Shown: positions 8,875-29,173 of the stretch, piece after piece
How positions within the stretch are numbered: position 1 is the stretch's first letter
Layout of the letters: every line of letters begins with the position of its first letter
Source of the DNA: Hydrogenophilales bacterium
GTDB taxonomy: Bacteria > Pseudomonadota > Gammaproteobacteria > Burkholderiales > Thiobacillaceae
NCBI GenBank assembly: GCA_024636675.1
Contig: JAGXGM010000088.1
Location: 1-64,000 of the forward strand
DNA length: 64,000 nucleotides
Direction of reading: 5' to 3'
Made by a program: the position numbers and the translations under genes
The notes under the pieces: model-generated
Databases searched by the model: none
What the model was told of the DNA's origin: nothing
The model's input: only the letters and a program-made list of their open reading frames with translations

Positions 8875-10218
8875 ATGTCGCACGACCCCATGCCACCCTA
8901 CCCCGCCGAACACTGCTGCGACGTCCTGGTGATCGGCGGCGGCCCGGCCGGATCGACGGCCGCCACCCTGCTGGCGGAAAAGGGCCACCGGGTCACGCTG
9001 CTGGAGAAAGCGCACCATCCGCGTTTCCACATCGGCGAATCCCTGTTGCCGGCCAATCTGCCGCTGTTCGATAAACTGGGCGTACGCGCCGAGGTGGAGG
9101 CCATCGGCATGCAGAAGTGGGGGGCGGAATTCGTCTCCCCCTGGCACGAACACCGCCAGACTTTCGAGTTCGCCGACGCCTGGGACAAATCCATGCCGCT
9201 CGCCTATCAGGTGCGCCGTTCCGAGTTCGACGAGATCCTGATCCGCAATGCCGCTCGTAAAGGCGCCAGCGTCATCGAAGGCTGCCGCGTGCGCGACGTG
9301 GAATTCCTGCCGGACGATGAAGGCGCCATCGTGCGGGCGGAACACGACGATGGTCGCAGCGAGTCCTGGCACTGCCGGTTCCTGATCGACGCCTCCGGCC
9401 GCGACACCTTCCTCGGCAACCGTTTCAAGGCCAAGCAGCGCAACCCCAAACACAACAGCGCCGCGCTCTACGGCCATTTCACCGGCGCCCAGCGCAACGC
9501 GGGCAAGAAGGAGGGCCACATCAGCCTGTTCTGGTTCGAGCATGGCTGGTTCTGGTTCATTCCCCTCGCCGACGGCGCCACCAGCGTCGGCGCGGTGGTC
9601 TGGCCGGCCTACCTGAAAACCCGACAGACACCGGTGCGGGACTTTTTCCTCGACCTCATCGCCCAGAGCCCCGCCCTGGCGGAGCGCCTGAAAGACGCCG
9701 AACTCGTCTCGGACGTGGAAGCCACCGGCAACTTTTCCTATAGCTGCGACCGCAGCCATGGCGCCAACTACCTGCTGCTGGGGGACGCCTATGCCTTCAT
9801 CGATCCGGTCTTCTCGTCCGGTGTCATGCTGGCCATGAACAGCGCCTTCGTCGGCGCCGAGGCGGTCGACACCTGTCTGCGCCAGCCGGACCAGGCGGCG
9901 CGGGCGCTCAAGCGTTTCGACCAGGCGGTGAAGCACGGGCCGAAGGAGTTCTCCTGGTTCATCTACCGGATCACCAACCCCACCATGCGAAACCTGTTCA
10001 TGTCGCCGCGCAACTACTTCCGGGTCAGGGAAGCGCTGCTGTCGGTGCTGGCCGGCGACATCTTCGGCAAGACGCCCATCTGGCGTTCGCTGCTGGCATT
10101 CAAGGCGATCTATTACCTCACCTCGCTGGCCAACCTGAAGCGCACGGTCACGGCCTGGAAGCGGCGCAAGACGAATATCCACCCCCTGGAAGAAGCGGAA
10201 GAGGTCGGCTGCCGATGA
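8875..10218 (+). CDS. flavin-dependent halogenase-like FAD oxidoreductase (aryl-polyene cluster)
   Basis: GGGPAG dinucleotide-binding motif; FHIGESLLPANLPLF; WFWFIP (WxWxIP) at 9547-9564; FIDPVFSSG (Fx.Px.Sx.G) at 9796-9822; candidate catalytic Lys in MQKWGAEF. Confidence 0.8.
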   Translation: MSHDPMPPYPAEHCCDVLVIGGGPAGSTAATLLAEKGHRVTLLEKAHHPRFHIGESLLPANLPLFDKLGVRAEVEAIGMQKWGAEFVSPWHEHRQTFEFADAWDKSMPLAYQVRRSEFDEILIRNAARKGASVIEGCRVRDVEFLPDDEGAIVRAEHDDGRSESWHCRFLIDASGRDTFLGNRFKAKQRNPKHNSAALYGHFTGAQRNAGKKEGHISLFWFEHGWFWFIPLADGATSVGAVVWPAYLKTRQTPVRDFFLDLIAQSPALAERLKDAELVSDVEATGNFSYSCDRSHGANYLLLGDAYAFIDPVFSSGVMLAMNSAFVGAEAVDTCLRQPDQAARALKRFDQAVKHGPKEFSWFIYRITNPTMRNLFMSPRNYFRVREALLSVLAGDIFGKTPIWRSLLAFKAIYYLTSLANLKRTVTAWKRRKTNIHPLEEAEEVGCR

Positions 10219-11294
10219 TGCCTGCGGAAGCGATTCTGCGGCTGGAGGTCCTGCCCGCGTCCCGACTTTCCTGCCTGGCCGGTGACGGGCAGGGCAGCGT
10301 GCTGGGCGGCGCCTGCTTTTCCCATCCAGCCCTCACGCTCGATGCCGGGACGCTGCCGTTGCTGGCGGTCGACATGCGCCTGCCGGCCGGCGAAGAGGCG
10401 ATCTGTGAAGTCTGGCATTGCGCGGAACCCTTGGCGTCCGGCCGCCATGGCCCGATCCGCTACCGTCAGGGCGACACGCTGCTGTATGGCTGCCTGAGCC
10501 TGGACGAGGCCACGCTGCAGGATGCGCGTTCACCGCTGCAGGCCACCACGGAGGCCGCTTACCTGGCCATCTTCGAACTGCTTGAAGCCCGCGGCTTTCA
10601 TACCGTCCTGCGCATCTGGAACTACTTTCCCGCGATCAACCGGGAAAGCCACACCATGGAGCGCTACCGCCAGTTCAATATCGGCCGCCAGGATGCCTTC
10701 CTCGCCCACGGCCGCTCGGTCATCGACAAGGTGCCCGCCGCCTGTGCCCTCGGCTCCGCCGGCGGCGGCCTCCACATTGCCTTCCTGGCGACGCGAGCGG
10801 ACGTGGTCGGCGTCGAGAACCCGCGCCAGCTCAGCGCCTACCATTACCCCAGCCAGTACGGGCCGCGCAGTCCGACTTTCGCGCGCGCAGGGCTCGTCAA
10901 GCTGGGCGGGCGCGACATGCTGTTCATCTCCGGCACCGCCAGCATCGTCGGCCATCAAACCCTGCATCACGGCGATGTCGCGGCGCAGACGCGGGAATGC
11001 CTGCACAACATCGCCGCCATCGTCGCCGAGGCCAACCGCCAGGCGCCGGGCGCCGAGTTCCGCCTCGACCAGCTGGCCTACACGGTGTATGTCCGCCATG
11101 CCGAGAACCTGGCCGCGGCACGCCACGAAATGGCACAATTCATCGGCGCCCCGGTGTCGGTTGTCTTCCTGCAGGCCGACGTCTGTCGTGCCGACCTGCT
11201 GGTCGAAATCGAAGCCTCGGGCGGCCATGCCATCGGCCCCAGCCAAGCGAATCGTTCAACCGGGAGCACGCCATGTCCTACCCCCGTCGCCTGA
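10215..11294 (+). CDS. XanB2/FkbO/Hyg5-type chorismatase (hydroxybenzoate synthase)
   Basis: LRIWNYFPAINRE...ERYRQFNIGRQDAF...SAYHYPSQYGPRSPTFARA...ISGTASIVGHQTLHHGDVAAQTRECLHNI; ATGA overlap with the preceding gene. Confidence 0.85.
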   Translation: MMPAEAILRLEVLPASRLSCLAGDGQGSVLGGACFSHPALTLDAGTLPLLAVDMRLPAGEEAICEVWHCAEPLASGRHGPIRYRQGDTLLYGCLSLDEATLQDARSPLQATTEAAYLAIFELLEARGFHTVLRIWNYFPAINRESHTMERYRQFNIGRQDAFLAHGRSVIDKVPAACALGSAGGGLHIAFLATRADVVGVENPRQLSAYHYPSQYGPRSPTFARAGLVKLGGRDMLFISGTASIVGHQTLHHGDVAAQTRECLHNIAAIVAEANRQAPGAEFRLDQLAYTVYVRHAENLAAARHEMAQFIGAPVSVVFLQADVCRADLLVEIEASGGHAIGPSQANRSTGSTPCPTPVA

Positions 11295-12112
11295 CCCCCT
11301 TTGCCCTCCTGCTCGCCTGCCTTCCCGCCAGCCATGTCCTGGCCGCCGAGCAACCCCTGTGGGAACTCGGCATCGGCATGAGTGCCCTGTCTTTGCCGGA
11401 CTATCGCGGTTCGGATGAATCCAGCCTCTACGCCATCCCGTTTCCCTACTTCGTCTATCGCGGCGCGTTTCTCAAGGCGGACCGCCACGGCATTCGCGGT
11501 ACCTTCTTCGATAGCGACCGCATCAAACTCAACATCAGTGCCGGCGCATCGCTGCCGGTGAGCAGCGACGACAGCCGCGCCCGGCGAGGCATGCCCGATC
11601 TGCAGCCAACCGTTGAGTTGGGTCCCTCGATGAACATCAACCTGTGGCACAGCAACGACCGGCGCCGCAGACTGGACCTGCGCCTGCCGGTCCGCGCCGC
11701 GGTCACCGTGAAAGACGGCCTGGATGACGCCGGCTGGGTATTCTCGCCGCGCCTCAATCTCGACATCACCGATGTCGCGGGACTCGCCGGCTGGAATCTC
11801 GGGCTGCTCGCCGGGCCCATGGTCGGTTCGCAACGCAACCATGAATACTTCTATTCGGTGGCGCCGCAATACGCCACCGCCGACCGCCCGGCCTACGATG
11901 CCAAGGGCGGTTACGCCGGCAGCCAGTTCCTGATGTCGCTGTCAAAACGCTACCCGAAATACTGGCTGGGCGCGTTTGCGCGCTGGGACAGCCTCGCCGG
12001 CGCCGTCTTCGCCGACAGCCCGCTGGTCAAGAGTGAAAATTACTTTGCCGCTGGCGTCGGCATCGCCTGGGTCCTCGGGGAATCGTCCACCCGCGTCGAG
12101 GCGGTCGAGTGA
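11273..12112 (+). CDS. MipA/OmpV-family outer membrane protein
   Basis: Signal peptide MSYPRRLTPFALLLACLPASHVLAAE; WELGIGMSALSLPDYRGSDE...PFPYFVYRGAFLKADRHGIRG. Confidence 0.82.
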   Translation: MSYPRRLTPFALLLACLPASHVLAAEQPLWELGIGMSALSLPDYRGSDESSLYAIPFPYFVYRGAFLKADRHGIRGTFFDSDRIKLNISAGASLPVSSDDSRARRGMPDLQPTVELGPSMNINLWHSNDRRRRLDLRLPVRAAVTVKDGLDDAGWVFSPRLNLDITDVAGLAGWNLGLLAGPMVGSQRNHEYFYSVAPQYATADRPAYDAKGGYAGSQFLMSLSKRYPKYWLGAFARWDSLAGAVFADSPLVKSENYFAAGVGIAWVLGESSTRVEAVE

Positions 12113-12942
12113 ACGCAACCCTGCTTTCGCCGTCCAGCCTGCCACGACGCTGGCTGCATCGGCTCTACGAATATTTTGCGCTGTGGTTCGGTCTGGGGCT
12201 GCTCGGCACGGTTTCCCTGACCTGGACGCTGTTCGCCGTGCCCCTCTATCACGTATTGCCGAAGCGTTGGGCCGACCCGGTTGGGCGTTGGGCCGCCACC
12301 CTCTATACGCGCCTCTACATTGGCGCGCTCGCCCTCATCGGGGCCTGCCACTTCGACCTTACCGAACTCGATTCCTTGCGCGCAGAAGGCCCGCTGATCA
12401 TCGCCCCCAACCACCCCTGCCTGCTCGATGCCCTGATGGTCATCTCGCGCCTGCCCAACATGGCCTGCATCATCAAGGCCGACATCTTCGACAACGTCTT
12501 CCTCGGTGCCGGCGCCCGCCTGGCCGGCTACATCCGCAACGACGCGCAGTTGAGCATGATCAAGCAATCCGTGACCGAGCTGAAAAGCGGCAGCCAGCTG
12601 CTGATCTTTCCCGAAGGCACCCGCACCACCCGCTGGCCGGTCAACGTCTGCAAGGGCACCGCCGCGCTCATCGCCTGCCGCGCGCAGGTGCCGATCCAGA
12701 CCGTGTTCATCGAGACCGATTCCGCCTATCTCGGCAAGGGCTGGCCGCTGTTCCGCCGCCCGCCGATGCCGATCACCTATCGCATCCGCCTCGGCCGCCG
12801 CTTCGCGCCGCCGGAAAAAGCCGGAACCTTCACCGAGGACCTAGAACGCTACTTCATCGATGAGCTGCGCGACGCCCCGCATTTCCTGCCGCCCGACGCC
12901 CCGCGGGCGCCGAATCCAGTGCGGTCTGGCTCCGATGTCTGA
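12109..12942 (+). CDS. 1-acyl-sn-glycerol-3-phosphate acyltransferase-like (PlsC family)
   Basis: NHPCLLDALM (NHxxxxD) and FPEGTRTTRWP motifs. Confidence 0.85.
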   Translation: MNATLLSPSSLPRRWLHRLYEYFALWFGLGLLGTVSLTWTLFAVPLYHVLPKRWADPVGRWAATLYTRLYIGALALIGACHFDLTELDSLRAEGPLIIAPNHPCLLDALMVISRLPNMACIIKADIFDNVFLGAGARLAGYIRNDAQLSMIKQSVTELKSGSQLLIFPEGTRTTRWPVNVCKGTAALIACRAQVPIQTVFIETDSAYLGKGWPLFRRPPMPITYRIRLGRRFAPPEKAGTFTEDLERYFIDELRDAPHFLPPDAPRAPNPVRSGSDV

Positions 12943-13732
12943 CACGAAGGTTTCCGCCAGCCATCTGGTGCTGATCCCCAGCTACAACCCGGGGCCGCAG
13001 GTCTACGAAACCGTGAACGCCGCCCGCGCCCAGTGGGCGCCGGTGTGGGTGGTGGTGGACGGCAGCACCGACGGCACGGCCGCAAACCTTCAGGACATGG
13101 CGGCGAACGACCCGCAGCTGAAGGTGCTGGTGCTGCCCGCAAACGGCGGCAAGGGCGCGGCGGTGCTGCACGGCCTGAATCTCGCCGCGCAGCAGGGTTT
13201 CACCCACGCGCTGACGATGGACTCCGACGGCCAGCACCCGGCCGACCTCATCCCGGCCTTCATGGCCGCCTCGCAGCAGACACCCGATGCGATGGGGCGC
13301 GAGGTCATGGTATTGGGCAAACCGGTGTTCGATGCCGATGCCCCCGCGCTGCGGGTGCAGGGGCGCAAGATTTCCAACGGCTGGGCCAACCTGGAAACCC
13401 TGTGGGCGGGCATCGGCGATTCGCTCTACGGCTTTCGCGTCTACCCCATCGAACCCTTGCGCCGGGTGATGCGCGGCCAGCGTTGGATGCGCCGTTTCGA
13501 CTTCGACCCCGAGGCCGTCGTGCGCCTGTGCTGGCGCGGCGTGCGCCCGATCAATCTGCCCGCGCCGGTGAAATACCTGCGCGCCGACGAAGGTGGCGTT
13601 TCCCACTTCAACTACCTGCGCGACAACACCCTGCTCACCTGGATGCACCTCCGGCTGATGCTGGGTTTCCTGCTGCGCTTGCCGCTTCTGCTTGTGCGGC
13701 GCCTGAACACCCACCGGTCAAACACCCCATGA
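12935..13732 (+). CDS. family 2 glycosyltransferase
   Basis: LVLIPSYNPGPQVYETV...VVVDGSTDGTA...TMDSDGQHP GT-A motifs. Confidence 0.85.
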   Translation: MSDTKVSASHLVLIPSYNPGPQVYETVNAARAQWAPVWVVVDGSTDGTAANLQDMAANDPQLKVLVLPANGGKGAAVLHGLNLAAQQGFTHALTMDSDGQHPADLIPAFMAASQQTPDAMGREVMVLGKPVFDADAPALRVQGRKISNGWANLETLWAGIGDSLYGFRVYPIEPLRRVMRGQRWMRRFDFDPEAVVRLCWRGVRPINLPAPVKYLRADEGGVSHFNYLRDNTLLTWMHLRLMLGFLLRLPLLLVRRLNTHRSNTP

Positions 13733-14502
13733 AAAACACCCCCGATTCGTCCGCACAAGCGGTGCATGCCCCGCATCCGCCGCTCACCGGCTACTACGCC
13801 AGCGAACAGGAACGGCGCGGTTACGTCGGCAAGCTGTTCGACAGCACCGCCTCCGACTACGACCGCATCGACCGCCTGCTCGCGCTGGGCAGCGGCCCCT
13901 GGTACCGCAACCAGGCGCTGCAGCGGGCGGGGCTGAAAACCGGCATGCGCGTCGTCGACATCGGCGTCGGCACCGGCCTGGTCGCGCGGGAAGCAGTGAA
14001 GCTCACCGGCGACCCCGCCCTGGTGGTGGGCGTCGATCCCAGCGCCGGCATGATGGCCTGCGCAAACCTGCCAGGCGTCCAGCTCATCGAGGGGCGCGCG
14101 GAAGCGATCCCCTTCCCCGATGCCAGCTTCGACTTCCTCAGCATGGGCTACGCGCTGCGCCACATCGGCGACCTGTCGGCTGCCTTCAGCGAATTCCACC
14201 GCGTCCTCAAGCCCGGCGGCCGCCTGTGCCTGCTCGAGATCACCAAGCCGGAACGTGCCTGGAGCCAGGCGCTGCTCAAGGTCTACATGCGCGGCGTGGT
14301 GCCGGTGCTGGCCCGAATGATCGGCAGCAGCGCCGAGTCGGCCAAGCTGTGGCGCTACTACTGGGACACCATTGAGGCCTGCGTGCCGCCGAGCGGGGTG
14401 ATCGATACGCTGGAGGCTGCCGGCTTTACCGGGGTCAACCGGCATATTGAAAGCCGGGCGCTGTCGATTCTGGGGGAGTATCAGGCGGTGAAGCCGGGCT
14501 GA
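13729..14502 (+). CDS. class I SAM-dependent methyltransferase (UbiE/MenG-like)
   Basis: VGKLFDSTASDYDRIDRLLALGSGPWYRNQAL...VVDIGVGTGLVAREAVKL...FLSMGYALRHIGDL. Confidence 0.85.
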   Translation: MKNTPDSSAQAVHAPHPPLTGYYASEQERRGYVGKLFDSTASDYDRIDRLLALGSGPWYRNQALQRAGLKTGMRVVDIGVGTGLVAREAVKLTGDPALVVGVDPSAGMMACANLPGVQLIEGRAEAIPFPDASFDFLSMGYALRHIGDLSAAFSEFHRVLKPGGRLCLLEITKPERAWSQALLKVYMRGVVPVLARMIGSSAESAKLWRYYWDTIEACVPPSGVIDTLEAAGFTGVNRHIESRALSILGEYQAVKPG

Positions 14503-14664
14503 GTTGCCTGCCGCCGTCCGTAAGCGGGACAAGTTTCGCGGCAGTAGGGACAACGACGAAGATGCCGCTTACGATCGGCTATAAAGCAAAGGGCGGTACC
14601 AAGCCGCACCTGAACTAGTTGGTCGGTGCTCCCAGCAATTTAATGCTCTCGCAGGAGAATCCGT

Positions 14665-14853
14665 ATGCCTCTGATTAACTTGGTCATCGTTTTGATCGTG
14701 GTTGGCGTGCTGCTTTGGCTCGTCAATACCTACATACCCATGGATCGGAAGATCAAAAACATCCTGAATATCGTCGTCGTCATTGTTGTCGTCATCTGGC
14801 TGCTGCAGGTTTTCGGCGTGTTGGGGTCGATGGACAGCATACGTATCGGCTGA
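14665..14853 (+). CDS. small Thivi_2564-family membrane protein
   Basis: MPLINLVIVLIVVGVLLWLVNTYIPMDRKIKNILNIVVVIVVVIWLLQVFGVL; short two-TM protein with RBS-like aggag upstream. Confidence 0.75.
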   Translation: MPLINLVIVLIVVGVLLWLVNTYIPMDRKIKNILNIVVVIVVVIWLLQVFGVLGSMDSIRIG

Positions 14854-14921
14854 CGACCCTCAAAGGGGGTCACTGTCGCATCAGCCGTAGGCGCGATGAC
14901 CTACCGCTTTCGACCGGAGTT

Positions 14922-14967
14922 AAGGGGGCAGCTTCGCAGAGTTTTTATTGCGAAGCTGGCCCCTTTA
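14922..14967 (+). terminator. putative intrinsic terminator
   Basis: aagggggcagcttcgca-gagttttta-ttgcgaagctggcccctt inverted repeat followed by tagtttctt. Confidence 0.5.
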
Positions 14968-14975
14968 GTTTCTTG

Positions 14976-15129
14976 GTCATTGCGAGTACCCAGAGGGTAT
15001 AAACTCCTCGAAGCAATCCCATCGGAGGATTGGCGCGAAGCACGTTGTGAAGTGAATGGTTAAACCTTCGCAGGACTTCTGACCGTTGGCCGGGGGTAGC
15101 CCGGCAGCTAGTCACTTTTCTTGTCTCGC
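14976..15129. repeat. left arm of a long inverted repeat (dispersed-repeat-like) flanking the IS
   Basis: gtcattgcgagtacccagaggg...aagcaatcccatcggaggattggcgcgaagcac...agtcacttttcttgtctcgc; near reverse complement of 16413-16557. Confidence 0.85.
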
Positions 15130-16412
15130 TGTACAGACCGGAGACATGGGTAACGCCCGTGCGAAGACATAGGTAACACTTCCGAAGTTGATTTTTCGGG
15201 AGCCCACCATGCCTTGGCAGGAGCAAAGCACCATGGCGCTACGTCGTGAATTTATCGAGTTGGCGCGGCAACCGGATGCCAACATCCGTGCGCTGTGTCG
15301 CCGTTACGAGGTCAGCCCCAAGACCGCCTATAAATGGCTCAACTGCTTCGCTGCCCTCGATGCACCCGCTGTTGCACTGGCGGATCGTAGTCGGCGACCG
15401 CACATCCAACCCCGCCGCAGCGCCCCGGAACTCGAAGCGAGGGTGATCGAACTCCGACAAGCTCATCCTGCCTGGGGCGGACGGAAGATCGCCAGGCGCT
15501 TGCTCGACGCACACGGCCTCACCGTCGCACCCAGCACCGTCACTGCCATCCTGCGCCGACACGGTCTGATCCCGCCCGCGACAAGCGAGGCTGCCAAACC
15601 CTGGTTGCGGTTCGAGCATGCCGCGCCCAATGCCTTATGGCAGATCGACTTCAAGGGATATTTTTCCACTCCCGCCGGGAAATGCCACACCCTGACGCTG
15701 CTCGATGACCATTCCCGGTTCAACCTGACGATCACCGCCTGCGCCCGCACCGACGCCGCCACCATTCAGCCCTTGCTCGCCGACGTGTTTCGACGCTACG
15801 GCCTGCCGGTGCGGATCAACGCCGACAACGGCGCGCCGTGGGGCAGTCCCAGTCTGGCGGAGCGCGGGTTGAGTCGCTTGAGCGTCTGGTTGATCCGGCA
15901 GGGCATTCGGGTGAGCCACAGCGCACCGTATCACCCGCAAACCAACGGCAAACTGGAGCGTTTCCATCGTTCGCTGGAGACCGAGGTGCTGGCGGGGCGT
16001 AGATTTGCAGACCTCGATACGGCACAGTGCGCTTTCGACCGCTGGCGCGGGGTGTACAACTGCGAACGGCCACACGAGGCGCTTGGGTTGAGTACGCCCG
16101 CGCAGCGCTATCAGCCCAGCCGGATTGCTTATCAGGAGACTTTACCGCCGATCGAATACCCGGCGACGGATCAGGTGCTGACGGTAGGCTGGAATGGCTT
16201 CGTGAAATTCCAGGGACGGCCTATACGCCTGTCGAATGCCCTGCATCGGCTGCCGATCGGTGTGCGCCCAGATCCAGAGCAAGATGGATGTTTCGATGTG
16301 TATTTTTGCCATCAGCGCTTCATGCGGCTGGACATGAAGCACGCCGCGGAAAATACTTAAAACCGTTACCTATGTCTTCGCACGGGCGTTACCCATGTCT
16401 CCGGTCTGTACA
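15130..16412 (+). mobile_element. IS481-like insertion sequence
   Basis: 48-bp inverted ends (tgtacagaccggagacatgggtaacgcccgtgcgaagacataggtaac at 15130-15177, reverse complement at 16365-16412) around one intact DDE transposase. If TGTACA is a palindromic 6-bp target duplication, the IS proper is 15136-16406. Confidence 0.85.
15209..16360 (+). CDS. IS481-family transposase
   Basis: HTH domain, WQIDFKGYF...LDDHSRF...INADNGAPWGS...SHSAPYHPQTNGKLERFHRSLETEV; intact. ORF extends to 15188. Confidence 0.88.
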   Translation: MPWQEQSTMALRREFIELARQPDANIRALCRRYEVSPKTAYKWLNCFAALDAPAVALADRSRRPHIQPRRSAPELEARVIELRQAHPAWGGRKIARRLLDAHGLTVAPSTVTAILRRHGLIPPATSEAAKPWLRFEHAAPNALWQIDFKGYFSTPAGKCHTLTLLDDHSRFNLTITACARTDAATIQPLLADVFRRYGLPVRINADNGAPWGSPSLAERGLSRLSVWLIRQGIRVSHSAPYHPQTNGKLERFHRSLETEVLAGRRFADLDTAQCAFDRWRGVYNCERPHEALGLSTPAQRYQPSRIAYQETLPPIEYPATDQVLTVGWNGFVKFQGRPIRLSNALHRLPIGVRPDPEQDGCFDVYFCHQRFMRLDMKHAAENT

Positions 16413-16557
16413 GCGAGACAAGAAAAGTGACTAGCCGCCGGGCTACCCCCGGCCAACAGCCAGCAGTCCTGCGAAGGTTTAGCCACGGTGTGCTTCGCGC
16501 CAATCCTCCGATGGGATTGCTTCGAGGAGTTTATGCCCTCTGGGTAGTCGCAATGAC
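16413..16557. repeat. right arm of the long inverted repeat flanking the IS
   Basis: gcgagacaagaaaagtgactagccgccgggctacccccgg...gggattgcttcgaggagtttatgccctctgggtagtcgcaatgac; inverted copy of 14976-15129 with scattered differences. Confidence 0.85.
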
Positions 16558-16579
16558 GGACGAAGCAAGCGGATGCGCC

Positions 16580-17896
16580 TCAATGCCGCCCCGCCACCGC
16601 CACCCCCATCTTCGGCAACCACCGCCGCAACCCCGGCGTCGTAATCACCGTGCTGAAAATCGCCATCAGCACCAGCATCGTGAACACCTGCTGCGAGATG
16701 ACGCCAAGATCAAAACCGACGTTGATGACGATGAGTTCCATCAGCGCGCGCGTGTTCATCATGATGCCGATCACCTTGCCCTCATGGTGCGACATGCCGG
16801 CCCAGCGCGCGGCGACGTAGCTGGCGCCGAATTTTCCCAAAGTCGCCAGCGCAATCAACAGCAGACACCAGCCCCAGGCCGCGGCGGAATCGAGGCTGCC
16901 GACGTGGGTGCGCAAGCCCGTGTAGGTGAAGAAAATGGGCAGGAAGAAGACCATGACGAAATGTCCGATGCGTTCCTTCCAGGCTTCGATCAGCTCATGC
17001 TCGTCGTGCAGGATCACGCCCATCATGAAGCCGCCGAAGATGGCGAAGACGCCGAGCTGGTAGGTGGTCATCGCCGAGACGAAGATGGCGGCAAGCAGGA
17101 TGCCGAGCAGGTTGAGCGTGAGCTTGCCGCGTCCGGCCTTCTCGCCCACCGGCACGGGCTTGGCCTGGCTAGCCCGGATCACGCGCTTCATCAGCGGCCG
17201 CACGACGAACCACCATGTAAGGAAAAACACCCCGACCAGCGCCACCTTGAACGCGAAAGCGGCGGCGCTGAACTGGGCCACGGCGAGCGCCGTGATGAGC
17301 GCGAGCAGCAGCCAGCCGATGACGTCGTTGATGGCGGCGGCGCTGATGGCGATGACGCCGATGGGCAGGCGGGTGATCCTGAACTCCATCATGATGCGGC
17401 CGAGGATGGGCAAGGCGGTGATGGAGAAGGCGGTGGCGATGAACAACGACGTGGCGAGCGGATTGATTCCGGGCGACAGAAGCGGCGCGCTGAGCCAGCC
17501 GAAACCGAAGCCGAGCGCGAAGGGCGCAATCATGCTGGCGCTGGCGATGAGGGCGACGGCGCGGCGGTTGTTGTGCGCGGTCAGGTGGGCGAAGTCGAAT
17601 TCGAGGCCGATCTGGAACATCAGCAGCACCAGGCCGATCTGCGACAGCATCTGCATCGGCGCCGCCGGCGTCGAATGAAATACATACTGGAACAGGTCGG
17701 GGGCGAGCAGGCCGAACAGCGACGGACCCAACAGGATGCCGACGATGATCTCGCCCACCGCCGGCGACTGTCCGACGCGCTGCGCCAGTTCGCCGCCGAG
17801 GCGGGCGGCGAGCACGATCAGCGTCAGTTGCAGCAGGGTGAAGAAGAGCAGCGCCTCGGTCTGGTGGACCGCGAGGGCGTGCCCGGGGGGGATCAA
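16580..17896 (-). CDS. CPA2-type cation:proton antiporter
   Basis: Multi-TM; GGELAQRVGQSPAVGEIIVGILLGPSLFGLL...GLVLLMFQIGLEFD...; ATGA overlap with the upstream fabG-like gene. Confidence 0.85.
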   Translation of the reverse strand: MIPPGHALAVHQTEALLFFTLLQLTLIVLAARLGGELAQRVGQSPAVGEIIVGILLGPSLFGLLAPDLFQYVFHSTPAAPMQMLSQIGLVLLMFQIGLEFDFAHLTAHNNRRAVALIASASMIAPFALGFGFGWLSAPLLSPGINPLATSLFIATAFSITALPILGRIMMEFRITRLPIGVIAISAAAINDVIGWLLLALITALAVAQFSAAAFAFKVALVGVFFLTWWFVVRPLMKRVIRASQAKPVPVGEKAGRGKLTLNLLGILLAAIFVSAMTTYQLGVFAIFGGFMMGVILHDEHELIEAWKERIGHFVMVFFLPIFFTYTGLRTHVGSLDSAAAWGWCLLLIALATLGKFGASYVAARWAGMSHHEGKVIGIMMNTRALMELIVINVGFDLGVISQQVFTMLVLMAIFSTVITTPGLRRWLPKMGVAVAGRH

Positions 17897-21066: not shown

Positions 21067-21109
21067 TCCGATAAAGTGAGTTTTCAGTCAATTCCACAGC
21101 CGGTTTTCT

Positions 21110-21862
21110 TCAGATCCGGCCGGGTGCTGGCGCAGCGTAATGGCTGCGCAACGACAGCCAGGCCGCCACCGCCCCCAGCATGAGGCCGCCCCACACATCG
21201 ACCACCACATGCTGGCGGGTGGCGAGGGTGGAATAAATGATGCCGATGCACCACAGCCAGTTGACCAGCCGGCTCCACCGCGGCGCACCGAATCGACGCA
21301 GCAGCTGATCCAGCCAGACACCCGAAAACAGGGCTGTGGCGACATGCAGCGAAGGGAAGGCATTGCCTGCGGCATCAATATTTTTAAGGAAATCCATCCC
21401 GGGATGGCGAGCCCAGTCGATATCCGCTGCGGGAACCGCGGTGGGCCAGAAGTAGAAAACAATCAGCCCCGCCAGACAGGTTCCGCCCATCGCCATGCCG
21501 TAACGATAGAGCTCGCGTCGCGTCGCAATCAGTGCCGGGGGCAGCGACACATACACCCACAATGAGACATACAGCGGCATCGCCCACGGCTGAAAACTGA
21601 TCATCTGATCCAGCCAGGTAATCGGCATCACCGTGGCCGGGTAGGCCGGGACTTTGAGCACGTAGAAATATGCAGCAAAAAACAGGCCGATAAAAAGCGG
21701 CGTCCCAATCCCTTTCAGATAGACATGCTGGGTGACAACCGCTGCAATCTGCCGGAGCCAGGGCGTTTGCTGACTGTGTTTCAAGGCCTGTTCTCCGGGC
21801 TGCGGCGGTGCCGAGGCGTGCGTTGTATAGGGTTCATGACAGGGCATCCCGTAAACGGACAA
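21110..21862 (-). CDS. PAP2-superfamily phosphatase
   Basis: FPSLHVATALFSGVW...STLATRQHVVVDVWGG acid-phosphatase motifs; upstream start uncertain. Confidence 0.8.
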   Translation of the reverse strand: MSVYGMPCHEPYTTHASAPPQPGEQALKHSQQTPWLRQIAAVVTQHVYLKGIGTPLFIGLFFAAYFYVLKVPAYPATVMPITWLDQMISFQPWAMPLYVSLWVYVSLPPALIATRRELYRYGMAMGGTCLAGLIVFYFWPTAVPAADIDWARHPGMDFLKNIDAAGNAFPSLHVATALFSGVWLDQLLRRFGAPRWSRLVNWLWCIGIIYSTLATRQHVVVDVWGGLMLGAVAAWLSLRSHYAAPAPGRI

Positions 21863-22637
21863 AACGCAGTCCGGCGGTGGCCGCCGACTCCAGCACCGCA
21901 GGCAGCACGTCGAGAATCACCGGCGTGCCCCCGGGTGTCCGTGCAGCATTGCCGTCGTGCAGCAGCAAAATGGCGCCGCCCCGCAGTGCATGCAGCAGCG
22001 CATGCCTGACCCGCCCGGCGTCGCCAATGCGGGTGTCGAACCCCCGCGCCGACCAGCTGGCGAGCGTCAAGCCGAGTCGCGCCAGCACGGGATCGAGAAA
22101 GGGATTGCGCAGGCCGGCCGGGGCGCGAAAGAACACCGGGCGCTGGCCGGTAATCTGGCCGAGGGTACGTTGTGCGGCCTGCAGTTCGCGCATGAAGCCG
22201 CGTGGGCCCAGCAGGGCAAAATAATGGGAATGGTGCTGGCTGTGGTTTTCCACGGCATGGCCACGGCGGACGATTTCCCTGCATATATCCGGATAGCGCG
22301 CCGCTTTTTCACCGACGCAGAAAAAGGTGGCGTGCGCGGCATGGCGATCCAGAATGTCCAGCACCTGCGGGGTGACGAGGGGGTCGGGGCCGTCGTCGAT
22401 GGTGAGGGCGATTTCATGTCTGGCGGCCGCGGCAGCGGGCAGCCGCGTCCAGTTCGGGCCCAGCCAGTTGCTGCGCGGCCACATCCCGGCCGCGGTCAGC
22501 AACAGGTGGTTGACGACCACGGCGCCCAGCGCCCAGCGCCATTGCGCGGGTGCGGCGATTACCGCCGCCAAGGCCAGGCCATGCAGCGCGACGGATGCGC
22601 GGATCAACAGGGTGGGACGCCAGGTTGAGTTAAGCAT
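21834..22637 (-). CDS. polysaccharide deacetylase (NodB/CE4) family protein
   Basis: EIALTIDDGPDPLVTPQVLDIL...HAVENHSQHHSHY...FFRAPAGLRNPF. Confidence 0.88.
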   Translation of the reverse strand: MLNSTWRPTLLIRASVALHGLALAAVIAAPAQWRWALGAVVVNHLLLTAAGMWPRSNWLGPNWTRLPAAAAARHEIALTIDDGPDPLVTPQVLDILDRHAAHATFFCVGEKAARYPDICREIVRRGHAVENHSQHHSHYFALLGPRGFMRELQAAQRTLGQITGQRPVFFRAPAGLRNPFLDPVLARLGLTLASWSARGFDTRIGDAGRVRHALLHALRGGAILLLHDGNAARTPGGTPVILDVLPAVLESAATAGLRFVRLRDALS

Positions 22638-24996
22638 TGGACGGGCGGGCATCGGCTTGCCGGGCAAAAATCGCCGAATAGAACAAGGCCAGGATGACGC
22701 CCGGTGCGACGGTCACACCCAGCGCCTGCAGGAGGGAGACGTCGGAAAACGCGAGCAGGCCAAACCCGGCGACGGTGGTGAGGCTGGCAAACAGCATCGA
22801 GGCCAGCGTGCGCGGCAGAATCGGCGTGCGGGGGTCGGGCCGATCAAAAAACAGGGCGTAATTGGAGCCCACGGCGGCCACCAGCAGCAAACCCACCAAG
22901 TGCAAAATGATCATTTGCTGGCCAAACAGGCTCAATCCCGCGGTGACGGTGATGACCGCTGCTGCCAGCGGCGCGATGATGCGCAGCACGCGCATGGGCG
23001 AGCGAAAAACCACGAGCAGCAACGCGATGATGGCAACCAGGCCGCCGAGCGACAGCGCAATGGCTTCACGCAGGTAGCCGGAATACAGGCGATCCGACTC
23101 CGCCTTCATGTCCACGAACAGCGCATCGGGCATTGCGCTCAAGGCAGCGCGGATAAGCTCGGCGTCGATGCTGCCCCCCTCGGGCGCGGTCAGCGGCAAC
23201 AAAGCCCGCCATTGCCCGTGTTGCCGGATGAGCAGCGCATCGACCGCCATCGCCATCGAGGTCTGCTGCAGGGCGGCCGCCTGCAGCAAACCCTGGCTGC
23301 GCGCGGCGGCGGCATCGTCCAGAAACGGCGCGAACAGTTGTTCGCGCACCGGCAAGCCTTGAACGGCTTGCGCCAGGCGTGTTTCCAGCACGGGCCGGGG
23401 AGGCAGACTGGCCTGGCGTGCGCGTTGCGTGGCCACGCTGGGAAGGTAGCGGCTCGGGCTTTCGAATCCGGCAAGTTCGCCTTGCTCGACCTGGGCTTGC
23501 AGCAACGTGGAAACCCTCTCGGCGGCGCGCAAGACGGATTCCTGATTCGCACCCGAGACAACGACCAGGTAGCGCACGTCCGGCGCACCCATGTCTGCGC
23601 GCAAGCGGGTATCGAGCTCCACATCCGCTTGCGACACCGGACTGAGTGACGCGATTTTGTCGTTCCACAAACTGGCGCGGTTATCGACCACGATGGCGCA
23701 GGCAGCCAGCAACACGATTGCCGCAGGCCAGCGCAATGCGGCCGCGCGTTGCACCACGCGGGACAGGGTGAGCCCGATTGCCGACAAATCGTGGACACGG
23801 AAGCTGGCGGGCAGCAGCGAGGGCAGGACAAAGCGCGTCACCGTTGCGGCCGTAATCAGCCCGGCAATGGCATACAGGCCGAGTTGCGCCAGACCGGGAA
23901 AGCCGGACAGCAGCAGCGAGGCGAAACCGAAAATAGACGTCAGCACACCGAGGCGAATGGTGGGCCAGAGGCGCTTGATCCAGTTCTGATGATCGGCGCT
24001 GTTCTGTTCCGATTGCACGAACAGGTAGATCGAATAATCCACGGCTTCGCCGATCAGCGCGGTGCCGAATCCCAGGGTGATGCCGTGCACCGCGCCAAAG
24101 CCCAGGCTGACTGCCGCAATGCCGGCCAGCGCACCGCTGATCACGGGCAGCAGCCCCAATGCCAGGGCGCTGAAGGAACGATAAACGAGCAACAAGAGCG
24201 TTGCGATGAGGGCAAGGCTGATGATGGACAGGCGGGTAACCTGGCGCTTGATGGTGTCGCGCGAGGTCACCGAAAACACGCCGGGACCGGTCATCACCAG
24301 TTGGGCGGTGGCGGTCGCGCCGGGGGCTTGGTCCAAGGCCTGGTCGAACGCCTGCCGGATGGCGGCCATGGCAAGTTGCTGGGCATCGGTGTCGCTTCCC
24401 GCGGCACGCGTTTGCATCAGCATCAAGGCGCGCGTGCCATCGCGCGATGCCCATGCGCCTTCCACCAGCCGCGGCTGGGTGCCGCTGTTGAGCTGCTCGA
24501 GCAATTGCAGCATTTCCCCGGTCGGGTCACGCGGCAGCAGGGATTTGACCAGCAGTCCGGCGGGCGAGGCCAGGAGGTCGATGCTGTCGCTCAAGGCGGC
24601 ATGCAGGCCGTCTACGCTGAAGCGCTCAGGCGTCACTGCCGGGCTCAGCAGGTAACGATTGTCGAACAGGAAAGCACGGTCGCGTTCGGCGTTGACGGGC
24701 TCGCCGTTATTGACGCTGACAAACGTGCGGTCGGCGCGCAGACGCTCGGCGACTTGCCTGGAAAGACTGGCGCGGGTGGGCGCGTCGGCGCCTTCGATGC
24801 CCACCAGAATCAGGCGCGAGGCGAGGCCGTCGCTGACCTGATCCATGAGCAGCTGCTGCTCGGGCGTGGGCGTGCGCGGCATGAATGCCGACAGATCGGT
24901 GGTGAAGTGGGTGCGGCTAATGATGCCGACGCAGGCCAGCAAGAAAATCAGCCACAGCACGATTGCTGCAGTGCCGCGGCGGCGCATGCGGATCAT
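22630..24996 (-). CDS. MMPL/RND-type exporter (aryl-polyene/xanthomonadin exporter type)
   Basis: Large two-repeat RND-like membrane protein; FTTDLSAFMPRTPTPEQQLLMDQ...GFGTALIGEAVDYSIYL...AAVGSNYALFFDR. Confidence 0.85.
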   Translation of the reverse strand: MIRMRRRGTAAIVLWLIFLLACVGIISRTHFTTDLSAFMPRTPTPEQQLLMDQVSDGLASRLILVGIEGADAPTRASLSRQVAERLRADRTFVSVNNGEPVNAERDRAFLFDNRYLLSPAVTPERFSVDGLHAALSDSIDLLASPAGLLVKSLLPRDPTGEMLQLLEQLNSGTQPRLVEGAWASRDGTRALMLMQTRAAGSDTDAQQLAMAAIRQAFDQALDQAPGATATAQLVMTGPGVFSVTSRDTIKRQVTRLSIISLALIATLLLLVYRSFSALALGLLPVISGALAGIAAVSLGFGAVHGITLGFGTALIGEAVDYSIYLFVQSEQNSADHQNWIKRLWPTIRLGVLTSIFGFASLLLSGFPGLAQLGLYAIAGLITAATVTRFVLPSLLPASFRVHDLSAIGLTLSRVVQRAAALRWPAAIVLLAACAIVVDNRASLWNDKIASLSPVSQADVELDTRLRADMGAPDVRYLVVVSGANQESVLRAAERVSTLLQAQVEQGELAGFESPSRYLPSVATQRARQASLPPRPVLETRLAQAVQGLPVREQLFAPFLDDAAAARSQGLLQAAALQQTSMAMAVDALLIRQHGQWRALLPLTAPEGGSIDAELIRAALSAMPDALFVDMKAESDRLYSGYLREAIALSLGGLVAIIALLLVVFRSPMRVLRIIAPLAAAVITVTAGLSLFGQQMIILHLVGLLLVAAVGSNYALFFDRPDPRTPILPRTLASMLFASLTTVAGFGLLAFSDVSLLQALGVTVAPGVILALFYSAIFARQADARPSNA

Positions 24997-25589
24997 CGCT
25001 GCGGCGCCGGCTGTTCGATGGTCATCAGCGAACGGTCGCCATCGGCCTGGATGATCTCAACGCTGCGCACCACGTTCCTGACCCCCTCCATCCGGATGCG
25101 GGCGATGACAGCGCCCACTTTGGGGTCGAGCGGGGTGAGCGTGAGCGTCCAGCGTTCATGACCGCCGTCCAGAGCCAGGTGGTAGACCCGTTCCAGGGCC
25201 TTGCGATCGCCGGCCAGGGTGGCGCGAATGCTCTCGATCATGCCGGCCACCTCGGGATAATCCTTGAGCTGCAGGACGTGCTTGCGGCGGCCGCGTTCCA
25301 GGGTGAGGGTGTCGCCGTCGAGCACCATGGTCTCGGGCTTCGGTTTCAGGGTGCGCTTTTCCAGGCGGGCCGGCGCGACGAACAGCAGTTCGCCGGAAGA
25401 TTCGATCGGCTGGTCGAGGATGGAAATGGTTTTTGTCTCAGTGAACGTGGCGGCGCCTTGTGGATGCTTCGCCAGGCCGGCCATGAGCTGGGCAATGCTC
25501 AGCGGGGCGGACTGAACGACGGGGCTGACCAGCAGCGCCAGCCAGACCAGGGCGCACAATCGAAAGCGGGGTCGCGTGAGTCGAGTCAT
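24993..25589 (-). CDS. LolA-like outer-membrane lipoprotein carrier protein
   Basis: Signal peptide; LAKHPQGAATFTETKTISILDQPIESSGELLFVAPARLEKRTLKPKPETMVLDGDTL. Confidence 0.8.
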   Translation of the reverse strand: MTRLTRPRFRLCALVWLALLVSPVVQSAPLSIAQLMAGLAKHPQGAATFTETKTISILDQPIESSGELLFVAPARLEKRTLKPKPETMVLDGDTLTLERGRRKHVLQLKDYPEVAGMIESIRATLAGDRKALERVYHLALDGGHERWTLTLTPLDPKVGAVIARIRMEGVRNVVRSVEIIQADGDRSLMTIEQPAPQR

Positions 25590-26533
25590 GGTTTGGCGGC
25601 ATCCTTGGGGCGCCAGAAATCGAAGAAGTTGAACCAGTTGCAGGGGGCGGCGCGGCAATGGCGTTCCAGGCAGGCGGCATAGACCGCCACGGCGGACTGG
25701 ATGGCGGCATCGCGGCCGCTCCGTTCGAGCGCGCTGAAATCGGCCAGCCGCTCGAAGTGGATGGCGTAGCGGTTGCCGCCCAGGTAGAGCCCGCTCATGA
25801 ACAGCACCGGGCGCTTCAGCATCGCGGCCAGGCGCATCGGCCCGACCGGAAACTCGGCGTCCGCGCCCAGGAAGGGGACGCGCAGGGTCGGGTCGCCGCC
25901 GAGAGTACGGTCGCCCAGCACGCCGAGGGCCATGCCTTCGTCCAGGCAGGCCTGCACCCGCAGCATCGAGTCGATCTGCCCCAGCGGGATGATGTCCTGA
26001 ACCGCAGCCGGGTTGATGGCGGCGAGCGCGGCATTGAGCTTGCGGGCGTTTTCCTCGTACATGACCATGGCCACCCGGAGGCCGGGCTGCCGGCGGCCGA
26101 GGGCGCGCACCACCTCGAAGCTGCCCATGTGCGCGCCCATCAGGATGGCACCGCGCCCGGCGGCGAGCACGTCCTGGATGACATCCTCGCCGTGCACCTC
26201 CACCTGAAACAGGTCGAAGCGCGCATTGAGCAGAAAGAGCCGGTCGTGGATGGTGGAGGCAAAGCTGTGGAAATGCCGGAACAGGTCGGCAAATGCGGGT
26301 TCCCGATCCAGCGCCCGGCGCAGGTAGGCACGCGAGGCGGCCTTGGCGGCCGGCGCAAAGAGCAGGAAGTAGAGGCTGATGCCGGCCAGGACAAACCGGG
26401 CGGGCGCGCGACCCATGCGCAACGAGATCCAGGTCATCAGGCGCAGCATGGCGCGATTGCTGCGCTCCGGACGCCGCACCCACTCCGCTTGCTGCGAGGC
26501 CTGGCGTGCGATCTCGGGTGCCGGGGCGCTCAT
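25586..26533 (-). CDS. LpxL/HtrB-like lysophospholipid acyltransferase
   Basis: GRGAILMGAHMGSFEVVRALG...GVLGDRTLGGDPTLRVPFLGADAEFPVGPMRLA. Confidence 0.83.
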   Translation of the reverse strand: MSAPAPEIARQASQQAEWVRRPERSNRAMLRLMTWISLRMGRAPARFVLAGISLYFLLFAPAAKAASRAYLRRALDREPAFADLFRHFHSFASTIHDRLFLLNARFDLFQVEVHGEDVIQDVLAAGRGAILMGAHMGSFEVVRALGRRQPGLRVAMVMYEENARKLNAALAAINPAAVQDIIPLGQIDSMLRVQACLDEGMALGVLGDRTLGGDPTLRVPFLGADAEFPVGPMRLAAMLKRPVLFMSGLYLGGNRYAIHFERLADFSALERSGRDAAIQSAVAVYAACLERHCRAAPCNWFNFFDFWRPKDAAKP

Positions 26534-26856
26534 GCCGCGGGCCTCGCAGAAAAAACCGCGCTACCGCTCGCCACGCTGCGTTCGAGGCCATGATGATCCT
26601 TGCAGCGGATCTCGAAGCGGAAGCCGCCCGCGGGTGACGCGGCGCTGTGCAGCGCCAGAGTCTCGCCGGGCTGGACCGGGCTCAGGAATTTCACCGACTT
26701 GAGCTGCAGCGGTCCGGGCATTCCCTGCTGTGCCGCCAGGGCGTGCAGCGCCGCGTCGAGCAGCACGACGCCGGGCAGGATGGGCTGGCCGGGGAAGTGG
26801 CCGGCAAAGGCCGGGTGATCGGCGGCGACGGGCAGCGGCATGACGTGCTCGCTCAT
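26530..26856 (-). CDS. FabZ/ApeI-like 3-hydroxyacyl-ACP dehydratase
   Basis: DHPAFAGHFPGQPILPGVVLLDAAL hotdog active-site motif. Confidence 0.85.
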   Translation of the reverse strand: MSEHVMPLPVAADHPAFAGHFPGQPILPGVVLLDAALHALAAQQGMPGPLQLKSVKFLSPVQPGETLALHSAASPAGGFRFEIRCKDHHGLERSVASGSAVFSARPAA

Positions 26857-28220
26857 GCCGGCTCCCCGCTCGCAGACTCGGCCTGCAGGGTGGCCAGCAG
26901 GTCCTGAGTGAGCTGGCCCGGGAGCTTGCCGGTGGCGTTGCGCGGCAGGGCATCGACGAACAGCAGCGGGCGCGGCAGAAAGACGGGATCGATGCGTTCG
27001 CGCAAGGCCTGGATCAGCCCAGCCGGCGTGAGGCCGGGGGCGACCACCAGGGCGGTGAGGCGGCCGATGCGATCCGCGTTGTCCTCGCGGGGCAGCACGA
27101 AAACGCCGTCCTGCACCCCGGGGATGGCGTTCAGCTGATGGTTGAGGCAGGCCAGCGAGGTGCGCTTGCCGGCGATGTTGACCAGATCGGCGTGACGGCC
27201 ATGCAGCAGGAAGGTGGTCGACAGCGGGCCGTCGCCGCTGAGCTCGATGACATCGGAAAGGCCGGTCGGGCTGTCGATGTGGCCGCCCTCGGCCCACAGC
27301 GTCTGCCCGTCGCGGCGCAGGTGGATGTCCGGCAGGGTGTGCCATTCGAGGCCAGCCGCGGTGCGCCGCGAGGCGATTTGCCCGGTCTCGGTGCAGCCGT
27401 AGATCTCGTGCAAGGGGGCGCCGAAGCGGGATTCGGCCTCAATGGCCAGATCCTGCGACAGCGGGGCGGTGGCCGAGAGGAGCTGGTCGGCCGCCGGCAG
27501 CGTGGCCTGCTCCGCCAGCACGGCGCGCAGGTGGTAGGGCGTGGTGACCAGCATGCGCGGGCGCGGCAGGCTCGCCAGGCTGGCGCAGATGTCCGCCGCG
27601 TAGAAGGGGTGGCCGGCATGCAGCGCGGCGCCGCTTTGCAGCGGCATCAGGACAGTGGATTCGAGGCCGAACATGTGCTGCGGCGGAACGGTGCCGAGGA
27701 TGGCGTGGGCGGCGCCGATACCCAGGCGCTGCGCTTCCGCCCGCACGTTGCGCACCAGGCTGCCCCAGCGCTTGGCATGCGGCACCGGCACGCCGGTGGA
27801 GCCGGAAGTGAAGACCAGCGCAACGACCTGATCGCGCTCGATAGTTGGAATGGCCGGGTCGGCCGCGGCGGCCGGCATCGATTCCGGATAGCGGAAGGCG
27901 GGCAGCGCAACGCCGGCGTCCCGATCGGCAATACAGAAGACATCCGGGGCGATGCGCTGCATCTGCCGGACCATTTCCGGAGTATGGGTGGAAGGCAGCA
28001 GGCTGATGCGGCCGCTGACGATGCAGGCCGCCAGGGCGACGGTGAAACGGTAGCGGTCGCCACACAGGTTGAGCACATGCCGCCCTGGCGGCAGCTGGCC
28101 GGCGAGGTGCTCGACCTCGCCCAGAAACTGGCTGACGCGGACCGGCGTGCCGCCGCGCCAGGCCACCACGGCGTCGGGGCGGCGATGGGCGATGAGCGGC
28201 AAGGCAGACCGGGACGGCAA
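26853..28220 (-). CDS. AMP-binding acyl/aryl-CoA(ACP) ligase
   Basis: VALVFTSGSTGVPVPHAKRWGSL...IYGCTETGQIASRRT...NIAGKRTSLACLN...ALPRNATGKLP. Confidence 0.88.
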   Translation of the reverse strand: MPSRSALPLIAHRRPDAVVAWRGGTPVRVSQFLGEVEHLAGQLPPGRHVLNLCGDRYRFTVALAACIVSGRISLLPSTHTPEMVRQMQRIAPDVFCIADRDAGVALPAFRYPESMPAAAADPAIPTIERDQVVALVFTSGSTGVPVPHAKRWGSLVRNVRAEAQRLGIGAAHAILGTVPPQHMFGLESTVLMPLQSGAALHAGHPFYAADICASLASLPRPRMLVTTPYHLRAVLAEQATLPAADQLLSATAPLSQDLAIEAESRFGAPLHEIYGCTETGQIASRRTAAGLEWHTLPDIHLRRDGQTLWAEGGHIDSPTGLSDVIELSGDGPLSTTFLLHGRHADLVNIAGKRTSLACLNHQLNAIPGVQDGVFVLPREDNADRIGRLTALVVAPGLTPAGLIQALRERIDPVFLPRPLLFVDALPRNATGKLPGQLTQDLLATLQAESASGEPA

Positions 28221-28229
28221 GCAGGCAGC

Positions 28230-28907
28230 CTAGCGCGGATCAGAGGACGCGCCCGGGCGCACCCCCTGCGTCTTCCAGTAGGCCATCACACCATCCATGA
28301 TGCTGTGTTTTTTCTGATGCGGCAGCTTGTGCCGGCGCACCCCGTATTCGACGACAAACATCAGCAGAATCAAGGGAAAGGAGAGGAAATTGGCGAAAAC
28401 AGACCAGACCCCGATGTCGGCAAAAAAGAACAGGATGGCGGAAACCAGGCTGATCGCCAGCAAAAACAGCGTCCACGCCAGCGTGACCTGGCGCGAATAA
28501 CGGATCTCGTCCGCCGCCAGACTGCCGTGGACCATTTCGGCAAACCGGGTGCACAGCGCTTGCCGCCCGCGTCCAAGGGTGACGCCGAACACGGCGGCGA
28601 GCATGGCATAGGTGCCGGCGTGCTGCAGAAAATAGACCCAGCCGAAATTGCGTTCCAGCACGCCCCAGAACCCCCACAGCAATGCGCCCACCCACACGCA
28701 CACGAGCACCATCGCCCAGCGCATGGGCGAACGCCAGGTCAGCCACAACAGGATGGCGAGGGAAGGCGCCAAGGAAACGGCCACCCCCAGCGACGGCTGG
28801 GTGGTGGCCGCCGAAGTGGCCGCGCTGTAGTGCGCCAGCACGGGATAGGCGATGCACGCGGCGGCGATGACGACCCAGCGGACTGCGCTTGACAGGGGCA
28901 AATTCAT
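28230..28907 (-). CDS. multi-TM membrane protein found in aryl-polyene clusters (COG4648-like)
   Basis: MNLPLSSAVRWVVIAAACIAYPVLAHYS...; position between AMP ligase and ACP. Confidence 0.7.
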   Translation of the reverse strand: MNLPLSSAVRWVVIAAACIAYPVLAHYSAATSAATTQPSLGVAVSLAPSLAILLWLTWRSPMRWAMVLVCVWVGALLWGFWGVLERNFGWVYFLQHAGTYAMLAAVFGVTLGRGRQALCTRFAEMVHGSLAADEIRYSRQVTLAWTLFLLAISLVSAILFFFADIGVWSVFANFLSFPLILLMFVVEYGVRRHKLPHQKKHSIMDGVMAYWKTQGVRPGASSDPR

Positions 28908-29173
28908 TTTGCCCGGTTGGCCGCGATATGCCGGGTCAGGCTGGCGAGGGAGCTGAAAATGCTGACGTTGTCCGCGTTATCCGCGCGCAACTGGAAACCG
29001 AAACGCTTGGAAACGACCAGGGCCACTTCCAGAATGTCGATGGAGTCGAGCCCGAGGCCTTCGCCGTAAAGGGAGGCGTCGGGCTGGATTTCATCCGGGC
29101 TGACGTCGAGGTTCAGGGTCGAGACGATGAGTCCGGCGACTTCGTTTTGCAATTCATGGTTGGTTTCAGGCAT
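28904..29173 (-). CDS. acyl carrier protein
   Basis: Phosphopantetheine site LGLDSIDILEVALVV. Confidence 0.9.
   Translation of the reverse strand: MPETNHELQNEVAGLIVSTLNLDVSPDEIQPDASLYGEGLGLDSIDILEVALVVSKRFGFQLRADNADNVSIFSSLASLTRHIAANRAK

Follow-up and report, generated by a model that had tools for sequence, protein, structure and literature searches.

In Azoarcus sp. BH72, disruption of either arcK or arcT abolishes the pigment and leaves the mutants colourless, ArcB produces both 3- and 4-hydroxybenzoate, and ArcT adenylates 3-hydroxybenzoate (PMC3949708). Here we analyzed a 64,000-nucleotide stretch of DNA (the window; contig C34 of a 2.54-Mb Thiobacillus metagenome-assembled genome that is 81% complete), which contains an aryl-polyene gene cluster of the same make-up. 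Related loci, genomes and contigs are labelled L, G and C, respectively. Gene types of arcA-E, arcG-K, arcN and arcP-V are present in the same local order as in the published arc table: halogenase, chorismatase, MipA, acyltransferase, glycosyltransferase, antiporter, ketoreductase (KR), dehydratase, chain-length factor (CLF), ketosynthase (KS), deacetylase, exporter, LolA, acyltransferase, dehydratase, AMP (adenosine monophosphate) ligase, membrane protein and acyl carrier protein (ACP). The arc genes are, however, split between two unlinked loci, whereas the window cluster is a single insertion. In Azoarcus the methyltransferase gene arcM adjoins the deacetylase gene, whereas the window has a PAP2-family gene there, the only gene listed in an earlier reading of the window (the sequence-only reading) that has no entry in the arc table (PMC3949708). 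Unlike its Azoarcus counterpart, the window ACP gene has no histidine kinase/response regulator pair next to it. The dialkylresorcinol genes of the arcuflavin hybrid ester, darA and darB, do not appear in the window cluster's gene list, although no dar-directed search was made.

Our combined evidence indicates, with a probability of roughly 90%, that this is a complete arcuflavin/xanthomonadin-type aryl-polyene cluster that was inserted horizontally as a unit at the tsaD-rpsU junction of a sulfur-oxidising Thiobacillus, and in which a block of three genes (MMPL exporter, deacetylase and PAP2) has been exchanged. As the sequence-only reading proposed, the predicted product would be a yellow pigment bound to the membrane. 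The best solved chains for the KS (19858-21066, − strand; ArcK/ApeO-like) are those of the aryl-polyene enzymes 6qsp_A (259 bits) and 7f28_B (253 bits); the next best scores 182 and FabF-type chains score lower. The CLF (19064-19861, − strand; ArcJ/ApeC-like; Ketoacyl-synt_2, E = 5e-24) is short, lacks the TACSSS motif of the KS active-site cysteine region, and matches only the CLF chains 7f28_A and 6qsp_B in the PDB. The assignment to the xanthomonadin/aryl-polyene type made in the sequence-only reading is therefore upheld, with both proteins closest to solved aryl-polyene KS:CLF pairs rather than to FabF and with a gene set that is that of Azoarcus arc. The same kind of cluster recurs across the 80 best loci, with KS identities of 62–92%.

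Family searches also recovered a dedicated ACP (28904-29173, − strand; ArcV-like; Pfam PP-binding, E = 6e-8, LGLDSID motif), an AMP-dependent aryl ligase (26853-28220, − strand; ArcT/ApeH-like; Pfam AMP-binding, E = 3e-21; NCBIfam 4-coumarate-CoA ligase, 3e-30, below its cut-off) and a KR (17893-18612, − strand; ArcH/ApeQ-like; Pfam and NCBIfam FabG), together with a LolA-like carrier, an MMPL exporter, an acyltransferase and a glycosyltransferase. Two putative dehydratases, both on the − strand, fit by gene position, with Ape-family matches below the Pfam cut-offs: an ApeI/FabZ- and ArcS-like gene at 26530-26856 (Pfam FabA, E = 1.5e-7; ApeI-like, 3e-5) and an ArcI/ApeP-like gene at 18609-19073 between KR and CLF (ApeP-like, 0.027). 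The flavin-dependent, ArcA-like halogenase (8875-10218, + strand; Pfam Trp_halogenase, E = 1.5e-31), a gene type expected in clusters for brominated xanthomonadins, carries WFWFIP and GESLLP motifs and is closest to the solved halogenases 3e1t, 8zop, 7fco and PltA; its activity is predicted.

Two further described systems share much of this gene set. The Xanthomonas pig/xan and Lysobacter enzymogenes clusters have a KS with an unusual CLF, KR, dehydratases, ACP and acyltransferase, as well as a LolA-like carrier, exporters, a chorismatase-family gene and a glycosyltransferase like dolichyl-phosphate mannose synthase, but they differ from the window in gene order, and Lysobacter has no halogenase (PMC3691225). 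The word deacetylase occurs nowhere in the text of the Lysobacter paper (PMC3691225). Relative to apeA-apeR of Escherichia coli CFT073, the window holds counterparts of ApeC, ApeO, ApeQ, ApeP, ApeI, ApeH, ApeG, ApeD, ApeJ, ApeL and ApeM, whereas E. coli has two ACPs instead of one and, in addition, another KS (ApeR), the thioesterase ApeK and the LolB-like ApeN; its gene table contains no chorismatase, halogenase, deacetylase or PAP2 (PMC8253772). ApeJ is annotated as a glycosyltransferase/acyltransferase (PMC8253772), whereas the window has two separate genes, a GT2 glycosyltransferase gene on the + strand and an LpxL-like gene on the − strand.

The insertion spans about 20.9 kb (8702-29553) between tsaD (7690-8700, − strand) and rpsU-yqeY-dnaG (+ strand), as delimited by alignment to empty sites. 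In 34 Thiobacillus genomes tsaD and yqeY are adjacent, 0.3–1.2 kb apart. Eight aligned empty sites match the window up to 8701 on the left and from 29554 on the right, and in the empty genomes some 14–20 bp lie between the two borders. The tsaD/rpsU slot is filled by inserts of 14–22 kb in G016, G003, G013, G053 and G054, whereas in several other genomes (G030, G052 and G044, for example) it is empty and the cluster lies elsewhere; the cluster therefore acts like a unit that can be transferred. Within the genus it is patchy, as a KS of the window type is found in 32–33 of 56 Thiobacillus genomes. Among named genomes, the highest KS identities (85–92%) are to Thiobacillus, including T. denitrificans RG. 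In addition, a clearly different aryl-polyene cluster (L146, G029:C11:166956-186955; KS 60%, MMPL 38%) occupies the same slot, which suggests that the slot is an integration hot spot. Clusters in the purple sulfur bacteria Thiodictyon and Lamprocystis (L009, L010, L012), at 76–78% KS identity, are nearer to Thiobacillus than are those of Rhodocyclaceae, and this suggests transfer between beta- and gammaproteobacteria.

The inserted cluster is itself a mosaic. Three adjacent genes on the − strand form a block of about 4 kb (~21,100–25,000): an ArcP/ApeM-like MMPL/RND exporter (22630-24996; Pfam MMPL, E = 7e-16), an ArcN-like NodB-family polysaccharide deacetylase (21834-22637, with the longest open reading frame (ORF) starting at 22667; Pfam, 2e-28) and a PAP2-family membrane phosphatase or phosphotransferase (21110-21847; Pfam PAP2_3, 1e-11). 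Against three sister Thiobacillus loci (L121, L124 and L126), DNA identity mostly runs at 70–94% outside the block and at 35–74% inside it. The Polaromonas-type loci L018 and L021 show the reverse, with higher identity inside the block than outside, and the edges at ~25,000 and ~21,100 are sharp. In trees of the MMPL exporter and the deacetylase the window group joins Polaromonas, Ramlibacter and Rhodoferax and leaves out the three sister loci, whereas in KS and LpxL trees the sisters fall inside the window's group. Approximately unbiased (AU) tests rejected the forcing together of all these Thiobacillus for MMPL (p = 2.7e-6) and deacetylase (p = 2.9e-4), and the forcing of the window group with Polaromonas for KS (p = 7e-52) and LpxL (p = 9e-5); these p-values are descriptive, since the grouping was made with the identities already known.

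The Polaromonas, Ramlibacter and Rhodoferax loci (L013-L025, L035, L046) have the same MMPL-deacetylase-PAP2 block as the window, whereas the rest of their cluster is more distant (KS 69–75%, CLF 52–58%), the chorismatase is mostly not found within reach, and the methyltransferase, if there is any, lies on the KS strand. PAP2 sits between the deacetylase and the KS in all 29 loci whose exporter is of the window type and is absent from that place in the 66 others; a few of the loci in these counts are duplicates, from genomes present in two collections. No locus has an exporter between 61% and 70% identical to that of the window. At the place of PAP2, a S-adenosylmethionine (SAM) methyltransferase is found in L121, L124, L126, L138 and some other loci, and no arcM-type methyltransferase stands beside the window deacetylase, where PAP2 sits. 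From these sequence patterns, the block appears to have been replaced by recombination inside the operon, in either direction, the version in the window being the one otherwise found in Polaromonas-like bacteria.

Ancient paralogues followed by differential loss could also yield this distribution, and both block types do occur within Thiobacillus. Such a history is nonetheless improbable: no locus was seen with both types, the block edges are sharp, and Comamonadaceae are nearer than sister Thiobacillus inside the block, with the reverse outside it.

Still less probable is that the window represents a distinct aryl-polyene sub-family, which the sequence-only reading had suggested on the grounds that the arms converge, only one ACP is visible and there are additional tailoring genes. 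Among 62 related loci with the GT2 gene inside the fetched DNA, it lies downstream on the opposite strand, as in the window, in 44, and the deacetylase is linked to the cluster in 75 of 80 loci; the usual arrangement thus includes convergent arms, a single ACP and the additional genes. One ACP, halogenase, chorismatase, MipA, acyltransferase, glycosyltransferase, antiporter and deacetylase are, moreover, all in the arc table (PMC3949708). As far as layout and gene content go, the proposal is thus refuted. The window does have PAP2, and the second SAM methyltransferase seen at that position in sister loci is missing from it, but PAP2 belongs to an exchangeable block and not to a lineage of whole clusters. 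The actual mark of this copy is that swapped block: the pigment type has already been described, and the cluster is of ordinary layout and notable for the module swap.

The remaining genes complete the two arms. On the + strand, the halogenase is followed by an ArcB-like chorismatase of the FkbO/Hyg5/XanB2 family (10215-11294; TIGR04444, E = 7e-76, below its cut-off; chain 5ag3, 1e-52; FkbO 4bps, 9e-50), an ArcC-like MipA/OmpV outer-membrane protein (11273-12112; Pfam MipA, 1e-41; the ATG at 11273 is the sole in-frame start near the chorismatase end), a PlsC-like acyltransferase resembling ArcD/ApeD (12109-12942; Pfam Acyltransferase, 1.7e-15), the GT2 glycosyltransferase (12932-13732; Pfam GT2), which corresponds to ArcE and the glycosyltransferase half of ApeJ, and a UbiE-like SAM methyltransferase (13729-14502; Pfam Ubie_methyltran, 1.5e-29). 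On the − strand lie an ArcG-like CPA2 Na+/H+ antiporter (16580-17896; Pfam, 3.8e-49), an ArcQ-like LolA-type chaperone (24993-25589; Pfam LolA_3, 4.6e-21), an LpxL-like acyltransferase (25586-26533; Pfam Lip_A_acyltrans, 3e-11), which corresponds to ArcR and the acyltransferase half of ApeJ, and a membrane protein at the position of ArcU/ApeG (28230-28907), which has no family match and in most related loci lies between the ACP and the AMP ligase. A family was recognised for 18 of the 20 cluster genes, the exceptions being this membrane protein and the weak ApeP-like dehydratase. Neighbouring genes overlap by 4–11 bp nearly throughout (the exceptions are a 9-bp gap between membrane protein and AMP ligase and a 43-bp gap between PAP2 and KS), so that each arm is plausibly one transcript.

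Every gene named in the sequence-only reading was found at its coordinates; the overlaps, given there as 4–10 bp, measure 4–11 bp. Its LpxL/LolA and FabZ calls were also right: the longest ORFs there, 24993-26591 (532 amino acids) and 26530-27345 (271 amino acids), are frame artefacts of these genes and were discarded. That reading did not contain the insertion borders, the swapped block, a small ORF at ~14666-14854, or an insertion sequence with inverted repeats at the center of the cluster.

Exactly where the arms meet, an IS481-family transposase (15209-16360, + strand; NCBIfam transpos_IS481, E = 2.9e-80) lies inside long imperfect inverted repeats (14976-15177 and 16365-16557). A transposase between the arms might mean a dead or silenced cluster; we consider this very unlikely, as the IS481 element lies between genes where the arms converge and disrupts none of them, and all cluster ORFs are open. 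Weakest of all is the notion of ordinary fatty-acid-synthesis genes duplicated beside lipid A genes: KR, dehydratases and KS do belong to families of that kind, but the KS match to ApeO is 77 bits above that to any listed chain outside the aryl-polyene type, the closest FabF-like protein elsewhere in the genome is just 37% identical, and fatty-acid synthesis has no role for a CLF, chorismatase, aryl ligase or halogenase.

Several points weigh against a complete, horizontally inserted and partly exchanged aryl-polyene cluster. The ApeP-like dehydratase and ApeG-like membrane protein were assigned by position, with a weak or no family score. Orthology to arc was read from gene type and order in the published gene table and not from Azoarcus BH72 sequences. 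The AU groups were chosen with the identities in view, though the log-likelihood gaps are large. The pigment pathway in Thiobacillus is predicted here from its genes, and a limited literature search found no Thiobacillus study of this pigment. Finally, the anchor chemistry proposed below is drawn by analogy, and the E. coli ape table has no deacetylase.

By comparison with published homologues, from which starter synthesis, starter activation and the KS requirement are taken, the chorismatase would convert chorismate to a 3- or 4-hydroxybenzoate starter, which the AMP ligase would activate for the single ACP. KS:CLF, KR and the two dehydratases would then extend it by malonyl units to an all-trans polyene. 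For the later steps of decoration, anchoring and export, we infer that the halogenase (from its family and motifs) and the methyltransferase may modify the ring, that the PlsC-like and LpxL-like acyltransferases and GT2 may attach the chain to a lipid anchor, and that MMPL, LolA and MipA may deliver the finished pigment to the outer membrane, where it would act as an antioxidant.

In lipid A modification, ArnC and then the NodB-family ArnD act on undecaprenyl phosphate. The window GT2 is among the best-conserved genes of the locus (69–95% identity over 15 sequences), and its profile matches ArnC (E = 5e-9) and dolichyl-phosphate mannose synthase (1.5e-8). In the deacetylase the NodB catalytic D/H/R motifs, preceded by an N-terminal hydrophobic stretch, are invariant in 16 of 16 homologues. 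Because these two genes parallel ArnC and ArnD, they suggest an amino-sugar lipid intermediate, in which GT2 would place an amino sugar onto a lipid phosphate and the deacetylase would then de-acetylate it; we offer this ArnC/ArnD-like anchor chemistry as a tentative hypothesis, at somewhat below even odds. The aryl-polyene lipid of Xenorhabdus reportedly carries galactosamine. A literature search on the aryl-polyene anchor sugar yielded nothing usable, and for the Xenorhabdus lipid the available source says just that its structure was solved (PMC8253772).

The two alternative blocks point to genes that cooperate in the late steps of the pathway. The Thiobacillus loci provide a natural experiment in which near-identical polyene synthases are combined with one of two export/finishing blocks, PAP2 being strictly associated with just one of them, thereby permitting a direct comparison of products. 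It is possible, though on balance doubtful, that the block acts as an interchangeable module for the final steps, determining polyene attachment to the lipid anchor and export. If so, the envelope lipid would differ from that of sister Thiobacillus with the MMPL-deacetylase-methyltransferase version despite near-identical polyene synthases, for example in having one methyl group less and an amino-sugar anchor of the ArnC/ArnD type on which a PAP2 phosphotransferase has acted. The PAP2 profile had no match in the PDB, and an AlphaFold model of PAP2 was set aside at a pLDDT (predicted local distance difference test) score of 52.

The assembly has a second aryl-polyene cluster, on contig C47 (G000:C47; L084, L085; KS 64%). 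We rejected it as the host's own: the FtsH on C47 is just 72–75% identical to near-full-length Thiobacillus FtsH, and 72% to the genome's own Thiobacillus FtsH on C67. On this comparison, rather than on tetranucleotide profiles, which by themselves did not decide the matter, C47 most likely comes from another betaproteobacterium and was binned here as contamination.

The small + strand ORF (~14666-14854), which lies between the methyltransferase and the inverted repeat, encodes a hydrophobic membrane protein of about 60 amino acids with two helices, kept at 82–93% in L116, L119 and L120. The IS481 insert is absent from the closest relative, L116, which has a 550-bp gap with remnants alone. Three genomes, that of the window, G016 (L119/L180) and G003 (L120/L179), hold three different cargos in related inverted repeats between the methyltransferase and the antiporter. 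An Rfam search of the window repeat region gave no match. Relatives of the window repeats, ~330 bp long, occur in 51 of the 56 Thiobacillus genomes and are absent from all 55 genomes of other genera. We surveyed such repeat pairs in the window (14976-16557) and in L175, L179, L180, L182-L199 and L201-L203; no mobilising enzyme was identified in them. Among the 150 copies listed, all 28 close pairs face inward, with none direct or outward; 25 enclose 0.2–1.35 kb, mostly one differing gene each, and three are nearly empty (67–75 bp). The pairs look like single-gene cassettes, of which the window copy holds IS481 instead. Cargos include AbiU2-HEPN (twice), RraB, a GNAT acetyltransferase, a P63C protein, a trypsin-like protein with a weak LmuA match, and a TerB/BRCT-like protein with a weak PDC-S48 match.

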